Part shown: positions 23,195-37,600 of the stretch, piece by piece
Layout: every line of letters begins with the position of its first letter
Position numbering within the stretch: position 1 is the stretch's first letter
Source: Planctomycetota bacterium
GTDB taxonomy: Bacteria > Planctomycetota > Brocadiia > Brocadiales > Bathyanammoxibiaceae
Assembly (NCBI GenBank): GCA_023261505.1
Contig: JAHFOV010000010.1
Location: forward strand, 1 to 47,966
Length of the DNA stretch: 47,966 nt
Direction: 5' to 3'
The notes under the pieces: model-generated
What the model saw: the letters and a program-made list of their open reading frames with translations, nothing else
Told to the model about the DNA's origin: nothing
The model's database searches: none
Made by a program: the position numbers and the translations under genes

Positions 23195-23278
23195 AATCCC
23201 TACATCTATGTTACAGCGAAAATGATAGGCGGAGCCATGCCAGAAACAATTCCATCTCTGACGGACTTTCCACCAGCC

Positions 23279-23327
23279 CGACCTACGGCTTAAAAGGCCG
23301 TTGCTCTACCAACTGAGCTATGCCCCC
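23279..23327 (-). pseudogene. partial duplicate of tRNA-Lys (bases 1-49 only)
   Basis: Identical over 49 bp to 22624-22672, covering the 5' acceptor strand, D-arm, anticodon arm and the first variable-loop bases. The T-arm and 3' acceptor strand are absent. With the intact gene it forms a 49-bp direct repeat, 655 bp apart, that brackets the toxin-antitoxin pair. The upstream flank (ATAAGCTCCTTATGATATAAG) may hold the original tRNA promoter. Confidence 0.9.
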
Positions 23328-23753: not shown

Positions 23754-24003
23754 TTATCTTGTATTCTTAAAGAAACTAACAATCTCTGGCAATATTTCTC
23801 CAGCCTTCCCTAGGAGGGCATAATCGGAAACGGGTGGGGTATTGGTGTTGGCCCAAAGCCCGGTCTGGGCATCTCTGAAGGTCGTTATGCCGCTTTCTTG
23901 TGACACTCCCGAACCTGTAAGAGCCACCACGAAGCTGACCCGGCTCAGGCGGTTGAGGATTTCTTTGGTGCCGGCAACAAGCACAGATAGAGACCTCTGC
24001 AAA
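23754..24003 (-). pseudogene. sirtuin (Sir2-type deacetylase) remnant with internal deletion
   Basis: The minus strand reads VVALTGSGVSQESGITTFRD followed by AQTGLW, the NAD-binding start of Sir2 proteins, then jumps to NTPPVSDYALLGKAGEILPE, which resembles the Sir2 C-terminus. The central 150 or so residues, including the catalytic His and the Cys4 zinc site, are missing. The GAG of the usual GAG(I/V)S motif is GSG. The 5' part of the ORF beyond about 24003 is repeat DNA. This cannot be an active deacetylase. Confidence 0.8.
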
Positions 24004-24130
24004 ATGCAAAATTTTAGAGTCCCCGCCTGCGGCGGATTTTCAACATTGATCCGCCTAAGGCTGACAATGGAATATTTCCCATCCGCCTGAGGCGGACTGG
24101 ACTCCATAAAAGGGAGGTTTTCAGAGGTCT
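23991..24130. repeat. composite palindromic element with nested inverted repeats and three hairpins
   Basis: AGACCTCTG (23991-23999) and CAGAGGTCT (24122-24130) are perfect outer inverted repeats. GAGTCC and GGACTCC form an inner pair. Inside lie CCGCC-TGC-GGCGG, a decayed CCGCC-TAA-GGCTG and CCGCC-TGA-GGCGG hairpins, all with three-base loops. The inner plan (GAGTCC, three hairpins, GGACTCC) is the same as the element at 43793-43875. Confidence 0.8.
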
Positions 24131-24202: not shown

Positions 24203-24817
24203 ATGGAGACATTAGTACTATCAGCGCTGGGCATTGGTTTGATTCACTCCCTTGCCCCAGATCATTGGGCGCCCTTTGCTTCCCTGGCCAAGGCACAGGG
24301 ATGGTCAAAGAAGAAGCTGCTTTTTATAAGTTTCCTGGCAGGGCTAGGTCACGTGGGTTCCAGTTTTATCCTGGGGGCTATTGGTATTGTCCTCGGTATG
24401 GGGCTAGCCCGCCTTGAAGGCATAGAATCCTTCAGGGGCAATATTGCTGGTTTTCTCCTTATCGGTTTTGGCGTTGCGTATGCGCTCTGGGGGCTCAAGC
24501 ACATAAGGGACCAGCATTTCCATCTCACCAAAGAGCAAATGATTACCTTATGGACACTTATGGCCATTTTTGTCTTCGGTCCCTGCGAACCTCTCATACC
24601 GTTGATGTTCCTCGCTGTCCAGCATGGCTGGACTGGAATATGGCTAACTACAATAGCCTTTTCTGTAACCACCGTATTTATGGTGGTGGCCCAGAGTATG
24701 CTGGCCTTTATGGGGTTTAATCTTTTACCCCAGCATTCGCTTGAGAAATGGTCTCACGTCATGGCGGGTGGGGTTATAGCACTTACCGGGCTTGCAGTTA
24801 TGCTGCTTGGCATATAA
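24203..24817 (+). CDS. nickel/cobalt-transporter-like membrane protein (HxxxxDH motif)
   Basis: A 204-residue protein with six predicted transmembrane helices. The first helix carries LIHSLAPDHWAPF, containing the HxxxxDH signature of NiCoT/NicO-type heavy-metal carriers. Later motifs include GLGHVGSS and FVFGPCEPLIPLMF with a Pro-Cys pair in a membrane segment. A paralogue (36727-37350) has FHTIQPHHWIPF and FSPCVDLLPIFL at the same places. The real substrate may be nickel, cobalt or another soft element. The gene is convergent with the candidate selenoprotein gene. No clear ribosome binding site precedes the ATG. Confidence 0.75.
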   Translation: METLVLSALGIGLIHSLAPDHWAPFASLAKAQGWSKKKLLFISFLAGLGHVGSSFILGAIGIVLGMGLARLEGIESFRGNIAGFLLIGFGVAYALWGLKHIRDQHFHLTKEQMITLWTLMAIFVFGPCEPLIPLMFLAVQHGWTGIWLTTIAFSVTTVFMVVAQSMLAFMGFNLLPQHSLEKWSHVMAGGVIALTGLAVMLLGI

Positions 24818-24856: not shown

Positions 24857-24929
24857 TGTAGGGGCAGACCTGTGTGTCTGCCCAAAAATCAAATTATTCG
24901 GGGGACGAACACATAGGTTCGCCCCTACA
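24857..24929. repeat. TGTAGGGGC-bounded palindromic element with two hairpins
   Basis: TGTAGGGGC (24857-24865) and GCCCCTACA (24921-24929) enclose GGGCAGAC..GTCTGCCC and CGAACACATAGGTTCG hairpins. Preceded by an AATTCCAAATTTCAAAATCC tract (24822-24841) of another repeat family. Its right end supplies the TAG stop codon of the recoded methyltransferase gene. Confidence 0.85.
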
Positions 24930-25668
24930 AAGAAATTTGTATGGGTTTTTTCGCCGTGAAGGTGGCACCAATTGTGTAGCGTGAGGTACGATAACCTGTC
25001 TTGCCTATCATCTTCACATCTACAAAACCTGTCTTTTCTAATAGCTCCAGGAAGGACCTCCCTGAGATGGTACCGCAGATTCAGTCGGACCACTGGCCCA
25101 ACTTCTCTACCGTTGCCTGGGCTACTCCTTCTTCCAGTATGATGTCGGCTGCATAAATACGTCCCCCAGGCCTCAAGACCCTGTAAATCTCTGCCACCAC
25201 TTGGCCTTTTTGAGGTGAGAGATTTAAAAGCCCGTTGAAAATGACCAAATTCACAGAGTCATTTTCCAGAGGGAGCTTTTCTGCCAATCCTTCACGAAAC
25301 TCTGCGTTGGTAATACCAAGCCTCTGCCGATTGGTCTCCGCCTTCTCTACCATCTCTGGGGTCATATCTACGCCTATGACTTTTCCCCTGGGTCCTACCC
25401 GCCTTGAAGCGAGAAATGCGTCCAGACCGGCACCAGAGCCTATATCGAGAACCGTTTCCCCTTCGCATACAGGGCCTAGGCCTAAGGGATAGCCCACCCC
25501 CGCGAAGGATTCGGTAACAGGGGAGGGCATGGAGTCTATCTCCTGCGGGTCGTAGCCCAAATTTTTGGCGCTTTCAGGGCCTACAGAAAACCTTGTTTCT
25601 GAGGATGGCTCACTGGCAATCCGTCGGAAACGGGCCTGAACTTGTTCCTTTATATCTTTATCTTCCAT
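24925..25668 (-). CDS. ArsM-like SAM methyltransferase, candidate selenoprotein (in-frame UGA = Sec196)
   Basis: The ORF track ends this gene at a TGA (25083-25081). The frame then continues for 51 codons that look like the missing C-terminus of the family: FLELLEKTGFVDVKMIGKTG, then YRTSRYTIGATFTAKKP. The UGA follows QWSD and precedes ICG, matching the place of a conserved, arsenic-binding cysteine (W-x-x-C-I) in arsenite methyltransferases. A bSECIS-like hairpin sits 23 nt downstream, and selA/selB are in the same window. N-terminal landmarks are LGYDPQEI, VLDIGSGAGLDAFLA, GVDMTPEMV and FNGLLNLSP. The usual GCGNP cysteine near residue 70 is absent (VGYPLG), so the substrate may not be arsenite. 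I start at 25668; the 16 preceding codons are repeat DNA. Predicted length is 247 residues. Confidence 0.82.
25045..25066 (-). promoter_or_regulatory. candidate bacterial SECIS element
   Basis: Directly 3' of the UGA, the mRNA CUCAGGGAG-GUC-CUUCCUGGAG can form nine base pairs (one G-U) with a single bulged G and a GU-containing apical loop. Twenty-three bases separate the UGA from the loop. Bacterial SECIS hairpins for SelB typically have a small apical loop with a G/GU at about 16-37 nt from the UGA, so both form and distance fit. Confidence 0.65.
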
Positions 25669-33248: not shown

Positions 33249-35168
33249 TTAAGCATTTAAATTGTGCAGAACCCTCTTGTCTCCTTCCCTCCTGGTAAAG
33301 TGTATCTTGTCAAAGTATTCCAGAAGCGGCACGGCATATTTCCTTGAGGTATTAACAATATCCCTAAGGTCTGCTACAGTTATTGAACCCCTTTCCTTTA
33401 CAAAGCTCGCAACAACCCCCTTTAATTCCTCAACTGCCTTTGCATGAAAGTAAAGACCCTCTTCCACCTTTATCAGGGTCTTTTGTTCTAGAAGTAAAGA
33501 GAGTAGGTTTTGGTGTTTCTGCCGTAAGGGAGGTTCTTGAGGTACAAGCGTTTCCAGACCGGGTGGGCTAAATTTATCCCGCAAGAAGGCCTCCTCTATC
33601 TCTTCCATTATCTTTTTTTCCTCCTGGGATAGCCTGACCTGAAAACCCACAGTAGAAATCTTGTGGTCTGTTACAGTGACAAAACCCTCCTTGCTTAACT
33701 CAGAAATGACCAGAGAAAAAAGGGAGGGGGATACCTGCCTAGGAAGTTGTAACCTTAGAAGTGACTCCTCCAGGCCTAACCTCATGGGGTTATCGGTGTG
33801 AAAATCTTCTAATTTCTTCAGTATCTCTATCTTTAAGGACTCCAACCTCTGCTTATGCGCAAACAGCACCTTTGAATCCTCTTTAATTACTGCCAGGGTA
33901 CCTTTTGCTGTTAATTCGTCTATTACCTCCTTTACTCTGGATGGGTAAATATTGAGGGATTTTACTAGCTCCTCCGAAGAGAGAAGGTAATCTTTGCTTT
34001 TGAGAAGGGCTTGCTCAATTACCTCTTTTTCGTCTCCCACGAGGAGTAACTGCAGTTCCTTGATAGCATCCTCCTTAAAGCGCCTGAGCCTGGAGGTACA
34101 GCACCTCAAGACCTTTCCCCCACCGATAGTGCGGCAGGGGGAGTAAGAGCGAATTACGTAGTGGTCGCCCCTTTCAGCCACAACAGGCCCCTCCAGGCGA
34201 AACTGAACGAAACATTCCTCTCCCGCCCTTAAGACCTCCCTATCCAGAAGTACAACCCTACCCATTACCTCAGTAGTGGCAATATGGAACCTCACCCTTT
34301 CTCCATTCTGGATGGGACGGCGAGAACTAGAGAGATGATGAAGATGACAATCTACAAGTTCAGTAGGGTCAAGGTAACCTGGTATTGACAACCCAAAACC
34401 TCGCCTGACTTCAGAGGTTTTTACACCTCCCAGGTTAAGGGCCGCCCTCTGCCCCCTTACGGCGCACTCTACTTTCTCCCCATGAACCTCTATACCCCTT
34501 ACCCTTAATACCTCCTTGACCGGAAGCAGTTCCACCTCCTCCCCCACCTTTACTTGACCGCTAAGCACGGTCCCAGTAATTACACAACCAAAGCCCTGGA
34601 TAGTAAAGGCCCTATCTATAGGAAGCCGAAAGAGGCCTTGGACAGCCTCCTCTTTGGCATTTTCCAGTAACTCTCTTATAACCCCCTTCAGCTCTGCTAT
34701 ACCTTCACCTTTTGGAGAAGCAACTTCTACCAGCGGAGCTCCTTCAAGAAATGTACCCTTTGTTAATTCCTTAATATCCTCTTTAACCAGTCCAAGCCAT
34801 TCCCTTTCCACCAGGTCCTTCTTTGTAACAACCACCACACCCTGCTTTAGCCCCAGGAGTTCAAGTATCTCCAGATGTTCTACAGTCTGGGGCATAACAC
34901 CGTCATCGGCAGCTATTACAAGGAGAGCTATATCAATACCTGTGGCTCCAGCCAGCATGTTCTTTACAAAGCGTTCGTGCCCGGGAACATCTACGATGCC
35001 TACCCTCCAGCCCCCTTCAAGGTCCATGTAGGCGAAACCCAGGTCTATAGTTATCCCACGGGCCTTCTCTTCTGGCAGGCGATCCGTATCTATCCCCGTC
35101 AGGGCCTTCACCAGGGCAGTCTTACCATGGTCTATATGCCCTGCAGTACCAATTACAACCCTCTTCAC
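33249..35168 (-). CDS. selB: selenocysteine-specific translation elongation factor
   Basis: Delivers Sec-tRNA(Sec) to UGA codons by binding a SECIS hairpin. The N-terminal GTPase has [11 protein letters not shown], a switch block [17 protein letters not shown] and TKKD; two EF-Tu-like barrels follow; and the C-terminal 260 residues contain the winged-helix repeats that bind SECIS RNA ([34 protein letters not shown]). The length of 639 residues is normal. It starts with GTG at 35168 inside a tandem TTCAAAG-type spacer. It follows selA by 71 bp. Confidence 0.93.
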
Positions 35169-35239: not shown

Positions 35240-36703
35240 CTAGCCCCTAACACCTGTCCCCTGACCCCTCGTATAGCAACTTACCAGTGCGGAAAGAATT
35301 TCCCATATTTCCTCTTTGTTCCTTACAGTGCGTAGGTCCAGGAGCACTCTGTCCTTTTCTATCCTTCCAAGGATTGAGGGTGCGTTCAATCTCAGCATAT
35401 CGGCTAGTTCTTGGGCGCTGTGCGGCCTGGGGTTTATAGAAAGGAGCCTTGTAGGTATCTCCTCTCCAGGGAGAGAACCCCCGCCAATAGTAGAGAACCC
35501 TTCCTCTATTGAAACCTCCACTGCGGGTGCCCTCCGTGAGAGTTCCTCTACGAACTCCTTGCACTGCCTTTCTGTCTCACCCAGAGGTCGGGCAATCATC
35601 TCCAGGATGGGAAGTGTTTCCTGGAGATTTTCCTTATCCATGTACAGCCTCAGAGTTGCCTCCAGGGCAGCAAGGGAGAGCTTACCTGTCCTCAGGGCCC
35701 TTGCAATCGGATTTTTCTTCATAAGATTAACAAATTCTTTTTTACCAACTATCAGCCCCCCTTGAGGCCCTCCCAGGAGCTTATCTGTGCTAAAGGTTGT
35801 AATACCAACCCCTGCCTCCACGCTCTCCTGGACAGTGGGTTCGTGAGAAAGGCCATATGCGGCGAAGTCAATCAGTGCCCCGCTCCCCAGGTCATACATT
35901 ACAGGGAGGCCGTGCTCTCGCCCCAGGGCTACAAGCTCTTGAGCGCTCACTGTGGCAGTGAAACCCACCATTCTAAAGTTGCTAGGGTGAACCAGGAGGA
36001 GAAGGGCTGTGTTTGGGGTTATCGCCTCTTTATAGTCAGAAAGATAAGTCTTATTCGTTGTACCTACCTCCCTGAGTATAGCCCCGCTTTTTTCCATTAC
36101 CTCAGGCATACGGAAGGAGCCTCCTATCTCTACAAGTTGGGAGCGGGATACTATTACCTCTTTGCCCCTGGCCAGGGTGTCCAGGGCGAGGAGAACCGTG
36201 GCCGCATTATTATTCACCACCATGGCCGCTTCAGCCCCAGTCAAGCTACAAATCAGGGCCTCAAGGTATTCTCCCCTGGGCGCCCTTTTTCCTGTAGAAA
36301 GGTCAATTTCCAGGGAACAGTAACCAGAGGCCAGGTCCCTGACATTTTCCAGAGCCCGCACAGGTAACGGTGAACGCCCCAGGCAGGTGTGAATGATAAC
36401 CCCTGTGGCATTGATTACCCTCTGGAAGGGGAGGCTAGCCTTTTCAATGAGCCTAGCCTTTACTTGAGAAACAATAGCGTCAGGTAGGGGCAATTCATGA
36501 ATTGCCCCTTTCAATTGTTCCCTCAGACCTTCAAGTACTTCCCTCACTGTAGATACTACTAAAGTCCTGGGATAGGTACCGTACAGATGAGTTAGCTCCT
36601 GGCTTTCCAGCAACTCATGAACAGAAGGTATGTTTCTCAGGATTTTAGATTCGCTATGCTCGTCTTCAAACTTTCCTACCTTTTTCATCCTCTTCCCTGT
36701 CAC
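35240..36703 (-). CDS. selA: L-seryl-tRNA(Sec) selenium transferase
   Basis: Converts Ser-tRNA(Sec) to Sec-tRNA(Sec) using selenophosphate and PLP. Typical features are the N-terminal domain with RNIPSVHELLES, VINATGVIIHTCLGRSPL, VNNNAATVLLAL and the PLP-lysine motif FSTDKLLGGPQGG. The length of 487 residues is normal. The last 15 codons (CYTRGQGTGVRG end) are translated from a GGGGTCAGGGGACAGG repeat, so the native C-terminus was probably a little different. The gene lies 71 bp from selB and 23 bp after the transporter-like gene. selC and selD are not in the window. Confidence 0.93.
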   Translation of the reverse strand: MTGKRMKKVGKFEDEHSESKILRNIPSVHELLESQELTHLYGTYPRTLVVSTVREVLEGLREQLKGAIHELPLPDAIVSQVKARLIEKASLPFQRVINATGVIIHTCLGRSPLPVRALENVRDLASGYCSLEIDLSTGKRAPRGEYLEALICSLTGAEAAMVVNNNAATVLLALDTLARGKEVIVSRSQLVEIGGSFRMPEVMEKSGAILREVGTTNKTYLSDYKEAITPNTALLLLVHPSNFRMVGFTATVSAQELVALGREHGLPVMYDLGSGALIDFAAYGLSHEPTVQESVEAGVGITTFSTDKLLGGPQGGLIVGKKEFVNLMKKNPIARALRTGKLSLAALEATLRLYMDKENLQETLPILEMIARPLGETERQCKEFVEELSRRAPAVEVSIEEGFSTIGGGSLPGEEIPTRLLSINPRPHSAQELADMLRLNAPSILGRIEKDRVLLDLRTVRNKEEIWEILSALVSCYTRGQGTGVRG

Positions 36704-36726: not shown

Positions 36727-37350
36727 TCAGGAATGACGAAATATAATAAGGGCCAAACCTATAAGGATTAATGCTGCGCCGACTATCTGTTTTTCATAAT
36801 CTTCAAGCCATTCTAATTTAAGTACTTTTATTCCATTATAAGCCAGGGCAGTCAAGAAGACCATCCCCAGGATATTGGCCATGGTGAAGGCAAGGGCCAT
36901 GGTCAGCAGGACTGGCCATGTAAAGCTGCTGGCCGCCAGGAATATGGGGAGGAGATCTACGCAAGGAGAGAAAACGGACATTGTAAAAAGAGAAAGGGTT
37001 GCGGTCTTATCTGAAAGAATAGGACCGGTAGCCTCATTATGATGCTCGTGTTTTCTGGCAAAGATAATAAAACCCAAACCCATAAGTATCAGTAAAACAC
37101 TTGTTAGCACTTCCCCGCCTTTCATATATCTGGTAATTTGTAGGCCTAGAAAGACCACACCAAAACCCATTGCCACACTCACAACAGATTTGCCCAGCCC
37201 GCTCACGGCAGTTATGCCCAGGGTCTTTGCCATAGACCACCTCTGCCCCCTGCCCACTAGCGCAAAGGGTATCCAGTGATGTGGCTGTATCGTATGAAAC
37301 AGGGTGATGATAAATATGGCAAAGACAAGACTAAGGGGTTGATAATGCAT
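36727..37350 (-). CDS. metal-transporter-like membrane protein, paralogue beside selA
   Basis: About 207 residues with six predicted membrane helices. The first helix has LFHTIQPHHWIPFALVGRG, an HxxxxHH variant of the HxxxxDH carrier signature. A later helix has FSPCVDLLPIFL, matching the FGPCEPLIPLMF of the paralogue at 24203-24817, and a histidine-rich loop (KHEHHNEA) could hold metal. I place the start at 37350 (MHYQPLSLVF) because AAAGGAA precedes it; the ORF-track start adds 16 residues from an A/T-rich repeat. Its position directly upstream of selA and selB suggests a link to selenium or to a metal used by selenoenzymes. Confidence 0.75.
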   Translation of the reverse strand: MHYQPLSLVFAIFIITLFHTIQPHHWIPFALVGRGQRWSMAKTLGITAVSGLGKSVVSVAMGFGVVFLGLQITRYMKGGEVLTSVLLILMGLGFIIFARKHEHHNEATGPILSDKTATLSLFTMSVFSPCVDLLPIFLAASSFTWPVLLTMALAFTMANILGMVFLTALAYNGIKVLKLEWLEDYEKQIVGAALILIGLALIIFRHS

Positions 37351-37600
37351 ACGTTCCTTTAAATTCAAGATTGGAGATTGGAAATTTAAAATTTCCAATC
37401 TTCATCCTACAATCCTCCGACAGGGGTAGATACTGCATGGGAGGTCTTCTTTAAAGAATTCTAGCAGGTTTTTCTCAGGCTTTCAAATAGTAAGGAGTAA
37501 GGGTACGTTAAGGTTGAAGCGGAAGTTTAAGAGAGGTTGCCTGACCCGAACACAATATTATTAAGTAATTGGAAACTGTGGATATAGGAAACAGGTATCT

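Follow-up and report, generated by a model that had tools for sequence, protein, structure and literature searches.

An ArsM-like methyltransferase gene with a predicted selenocysteine codon in a Planctomycetota genome lacks two of the three arsenic-ligand cysteines

Introduction

The classical arsenite methyltransferases ArsM and AS3MT (PDB 4fr0, 5evj, 8xt7) possess a three-cysteine arsenite site, which in CmArsM is formed by Cys72, Cys174 and Cys224. In human AS3MT, loss of the cysteine at the first site abolishes arsenite methylation, the cysteines at the second and third sites are needed for both steps studied, and dimethylarsenite binds one cysteine (PMC3877260). Selenoprotein forms of these enzymes have been listed repeatedly. 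ArsM-like selenoproteins appeared with eight sequences in 2008 (PMC2398784), arsenite methyltransferase selenoproteins were counted as 41 proteins in 39 organisms in 2016 (PMC5029168) and were listed again in 2022 (PMC9312934), and a list of 2026 gives the motif UxxG and places the family, citing Fomenko 2007, before those 'predicted with high confidence' (PMC13188914). NCBIfam furthermore holds models of fused selenoproteins in which a methyltransferase part is followed by a second C-terminal domain with its own Sec/Cys motif, namely NF041537 (ArsM/AhpD), NF041536 (ArsM/DUF2284) and NF047649 (methyltransferase/UXPK-star). Among the enzymes methylating sulfide or methanethiol, i.e. MddA, MddH, MddM1 and MddM2, no selenoprotein form is described in PMC12904073, where MddH and MddM2 are UbiE-family SAM enzymes.

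The gene analyzed here, SecMT, belongs to the already established family of ArsM-like selenoproteins. Novelty at the level of the family could thus not be upheld, as the four papers and the fused-domain models cover proteins of this kind. For the joint loss of the two other ligand cysteines and for the MddA/LysR neighbourhood described below, no prior mention was found in an incomplete coverage of the literature, and earlier notice is possible.

Results and Discussion

A methyltransferase frame with a single in-frame UGA

SecMT lies at positions 24925-25668 on the minus strand of the window, by which we mean the whole analyzed stretch of 47,966 nucleotides (contig JAHFOV010000010.1). Starting with ATG at 25668, the frame consists of 195 codons, a single UGA at 25081-25083, 51 sense codons and a TAA stop at 24927-24925. 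Translation of TGA as U yields an ArsM-like SAM-dependent methyltransferase of 247 amino acids with selenocysteine at residue 196 in the context QWSD-U-ICG. No counterpart was found on the plus strand of 24925-25668, so that the gene is confined to the minus strand, and it is there that the single TGA and the 51 open codons of the preliminary description, which had named no strand, are found. The product matches Methyltransf_31 at 2e-31, and its SAM-binding core is conserved. Standard gene callers would end the protein at residue 195 and drop the predicted active-site residue.

An open stretch of 51 codons has a chance of ~0.09 by itself and is therefore weak evidence when taken alone. Homologues with UGA at the identical codon are, however, carried by 7 of the 9 genomes of the window's family, its own included. 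All six other homologues from the family have the UGA at this codon and are 66-83% identical to SecMT, and one further, more distant genome of the order shares it at 44% identity. In pairwise comparisons of unsaturated pairs, dN/dS amounts to 0.05-0.29 after the UGA and to 0.05-0.15 before it. The residues following the UGA are under purifying selection, much like the part preceding it; a dN/dS near 1, which had been named beforehand as the outcome that would speak against readthrough, is not seen. Homologues with either UGA or Cys at residue 196, which were to be looked for, both exist: the UGA occupies the same position in the TGA-bearing relatives, and the Cys forms have cysteine there.

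A SECIS-type hairpin downstream of the UGA

The UGA is followed by a hairpin of 8 bp (25047-25065, minus strand) with GGUC in its apical loop. The stem begins 15 nt and the loop is centred ~25 nt after the UGA, and the stem is conserved in seven family members. A bulged GU-loop hairpin 23 nt downstream had been proposed; the hairpin is real and its stem is unbulged. As a search of Rfam at SecMT returned no SECIS-type family, hairpins were scored directly, and the assignment as SECIS-type was thus judged by position and pairing rather than by a bSECIS model. Within a set of GC-rich, partly related sequences, an uninterrupted stem of at least 6 bp, centred 14-28 nt past the codon, follows the UGA in 50 of 56 Sec relatives as compared to 4 of 30 Cys relatives (P ~2e-12). 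Mean folding energy z-scores separate the two forms less sharply than stem length does (P 0.001). The sequences of the stems differ among groups of Sec relatives, and in one group of 12 from Desulfobacterota/Nitrospirota two-sided changes occur at four of seven pairs. Within the window's family the stem is conserved and two-sided compensation is absent, and the SECIS claim therefore rests on the wider relatives.

Selenocysteine machinery and the reading of the UGA

The genes for SelA and SelB, already recognized in the preliminary description, lie in the window ~8 kb upstream of SecMT, and both score above the curated cut-offs: selA, selenocysteine synthase (35240-36703, minus strand), with 568 bits for TIGR00474 (cut-off 268) and selB, the Sec-specific elongation factor (33249-35168, minus strand), with 391 bits for TIGR00475 (cut-off 242). 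The genome also contains tRNA-Sec and SelD, which itself has an in-frame UGA in CGGUAGK, and hence all four components. In a related locus (L098) the genes are arranged in the order selA-selB, SecMT, selD. All eight intact SecMT copies among 60 genomes are found in SelB-bearing genomes (P ~0.004, uncorrected for kinship). A genome that is 99% complete and in which SelB was not detected at the threshold used (G023) has only a decayed copy with a missing start and a second TGA (L013; G023:C12:9145-12690).

If the UGA were a normal stop codon, or had arisen by mutation in a pseudogene, the protein would end there and the residues beyond it would not be made. Such a reading could draw on the fact that 51 open codons are expected by chance ~9% of the time, but the same UGA in 56 relatives, the selection acting after it, the hairpins, the Sec machinery and the decay of the gene where SelB went undetected render it extremely improbable. 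We thus consider it highly probable, as judged from these comparisons, that selenocysteine is inserted at codon 196 in vivo, as the preliminary description had assumed; the insertion would be carried out by SelB and Sec-tRNA together with the downstream hairpin.

Fold and relation to ArsM

By sequence, the best matches of SecMT in the PDB are ArsM/AS3MT. An AlphaFold2 model has a mean pLDDT of 92, with the lowest values (~59) in the loop near residue 196, and Foldseek places ArsM/AS3MT on top (best 5evj, TMq 0.68). SecMT is a single-domain SAM methyltransferase of the ArsM fold and shares with the classical enzymes this fold, the SAM core and the third ligand position. It nevertheless scores 215.2 bits with NF008823, the model for arsenite methyltransferase ArsM, below the cut-off of 263. 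With the PRK11873/NF008823 selenoprotein family it has in common the ArsM-like domain, the Sec at UxxG (U-ICG in SecMT) and a Sec-decoding host; it lacks the two other arsenic ligands, in which it may differ from the reference protein of the literature, WP_011987699.1. The best NCBIfam models over the whole methyltransferase part are those of the fused selenoproteins, NF041537 (249 bits), NF041536 (239) and NF047649 (221), and SecMT stays far under their cut-offs of 510, 575 and 460, respectively. Unlike these proteins, it ends at residue 247, with one Sec and no second domain.

Selenolates have an affinity for soft metals, and Sec196 could be a redox residue or a ligand of mercury or another soft metal rather than part of a methyl-acceptor site, as would suit, e.g., an organometal or a thiol-redox step. 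Selenoproteins in which ArsM-like domains are fused to AhpD, DUF2284 or UXPK-star, whose models match SecMT best, would be in line with this role, as would a metal-binding YHS/TRASH protein adjoining SecMT in one locus (L131). The conserved SAM-binding core, from which methyl transfer is expected, argues against it, and a conserved UxC redox pair is missing since C198 is Ser, Gly or Ala in relatives, for which reason a U196/C198 pair was dropped as a candidate. We consider this role improbable.

Loss of two arsenic-ligand positions accompanies selenocysteine

In alignments with CmArsM, Sec196 falls on Cys224, the third arsenic-ligand position, in agreement with the earlier assignment of the UGA to a conserved ArsM cysteine. 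The first position (Cys72) is Val58 (25495-25497, minus strand) and the second (Cys174) is Gly146 (25231-25233, minus strand). The absence of the cysteine of the GCGNP motif had thus been recognized correctly, and the second missing cysteine, at Gly146, had been overlooked. In place of the three-cysteine site, SecMT has V58, G146 and U196.

This arrangement extends to the relatives. None of 56 Sec forms (48 of 80 named loci from profile searches plus eight found separately) has Cys at site 1 or 2; they have V, T or I at the first and G at the second. By contrast, 27 of the 30 Cys forms among the 80 named loci have Cys at all three sites. Two of the exceptions (L083 and L088) combine V and G with Cys and represent cysteine versions of the Sec type, i.e. 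natural controls, and L108 is the third Cys form without the full set. As the pattern used to gather the relatives favours GVG, the coupling was re-tested in the window's class with a query of the three-cysteine (CCC) type. All 48 non-TGA loci, several places being sampled twice, were CCC, three loci were of the V-G-UGA type, and every genome that contributed an intact single-TGA row has a Sec form of the V/G type. In the pooled searches, 75 of 78 Cys-form loci, some of them sampled twice, retain the three cysteines. A tree of 86 rows requires two changes between Sec and Cys labels as compared to 25 with shuffled labels. Because the three positions vary together across Sec and Cys forms, Sec has not merely been exchanged for one cysteine of an otherwise unchanged arsenite site; the whole site differs, one chalcogen ligand replacing three.

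With one of three ligand positions kept, SecMT would not be expected to bind inorganic arsenite through three thiolates, and an arsenite methyltransferase function of the Sec-type branch is, on these alignments, doubtful. The branch, which spans Planctomycetota, Chloroflexota, Actinomycetota, Thermodesulfobacteriota, Nitrospirota and Pseudomonadota among others, resembles the database 'arsenite methyltransferase', yet in all members sampled two of the three ligands are missing. Surveys that equate arsM gene counts with arsenic methylation potential may therefore miscount it. Two genomes (G002 and G005) have a separate CCC-type ArsM match besides SecMT, which need not then be their arsenic enzyme. 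In G002, a Radical-SAM-like protein and a three-cysteine ArsM domain share one frame (L144, 10-2370). Such long fused frames look common in the window's class, and two genomes have one in addition to SecMT.

Gene neighbourhoods and the possible acceptor

In several genomes of the window's family, SecMT lies between tldE/tldD/ligA and a convergent gene for a membrane protein, and in the window these neighbours (tldD/tldE, membrane protein) point to no substrate. More informative are the loci of the Planctomycetota sister group of the family (support 100/96). Here a LysR regulator matching NF040786, 'selenium metabolism-associated', lies upstream of SecMT in six loci; the two regulators examined in full (L043 and L046) score above the cut-off of this model. 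In four loci of this group a gene for MddA, the methanethiol S-methyltransferase, follows SecMT at a distance of 18-73 nt (324-352 bits, cut-off 270). MddA thus appears as an operon partner of SecMT in these relatives; the SAM enzymes MddH and MddM2 were compared with SecMT by description only.

On the basis of the lost cysteines at sites 1 and 2 and of the LysR and MddA genes flanking SecMT in the sister group, we favour, at about even chances, a selenoprotein acting as a Sec-dependent methyltransferase on a small acceptor for which one ligand suffices, with selenide or sulfide as first and dimethylarsenite as second choice. In this mechanism the selenolate of Sec196, for which we infer a catalytic role, would bind or activate the acceptor, and selenide or sulfide would be converted to methylselenol or methanethiol. 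In the Planctomycetota relatives, the product might then be passed to MddA under control of the selenium-associated LysR regulator. These results lend weight to the earlier suggestion that the methyltransferase may have another activity than ArsM, and the neighbourhoods favour selenium or sulfur over antimony and tellurium, which had also been named. Counting against selenide or sulfide, the nearest solved structures and all NCBIfam names are those of arsenite methyltransferases, and MddA adjoins SecMT in just four of the 48 named Sec loci, which are related to each other and all from Planctomycetota, the window genome having no MddA above the cut-off.

Alternatively, SecMT could be a selenoprotein arsenical methyltransferase whose selenolate holds methylated arsenicals, perhaps with glutathione as further ligands, and which serves late methylation or the volatilisation of arsenic. 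ArsM is its nearest relative in fold and sequence, and dimethylarsenite, which needs one ligand only (PMC3877260), would also fit a single Sec. An ArsR-type regulator is encoded within 3 kb of six SecMT homologues from Chloroflexota/Actinomycetota, in three cases within 50 nt; in the member examined (L086) it is fused to rhodanese and could sense a thiol/persulfide or a metalloid. The other two ligand cysteines, however, are missing in 56 of 56 Sec forms, ArsP-type permeases stand beside CCC-type genes in three loci and are not among the neighbour families listed for the Sec-type loci, and selenium/sulfur genes flank SecMT in the sister group. Genes next to SecMT in GC-rich loci were called by a naive procedure, and some of the frames are spurious. 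We regard the arsenical function as rather unlikely, though less so than a redox or metal-ligand role.

If selenide or sulfide is the acceptor, SecMT would allow volatile gases of selenium or sulfur to be formed in a selenium-dependent way. More tentatively, the whole Sec-type branch may be a separate family that methylates reduced selenium or sulfur via one Sec, in which case the label arsenite methyltransferase would be wrong. Selenocysteine would then serve selenium detoxification itself, and in some lineages the dimethyl product would be formed by MddA.

Further observations on the surroundings

The small YHS/TRASH-domain protein of L131 (1588-1905, minus strand; G004) is encoded between SecMT and tldE. 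In the window, two related membrane proteins (36727-37398, minus strand, and 24203-24817, plus strand; 29% identity) belong to no Pfam family, and a comparison with solved structures gave no identity for the one next to SecMT. The former is encoded 23 nt upstream of selA and likewise directly precedes selA in five more of the family's genomes, and the latter is convergent with SecMT in the window and in four of those five; both are candidates for selenium-linked transporters. A weak Rfam tRNA match at 23241-23327 (minus strand; 39 bits, uncalled by ARAGORN) is possibly a degenerate tRNA, and a truncated SIR2 fragment at 23754-24107 (minus strand) is probably a gene remnant.
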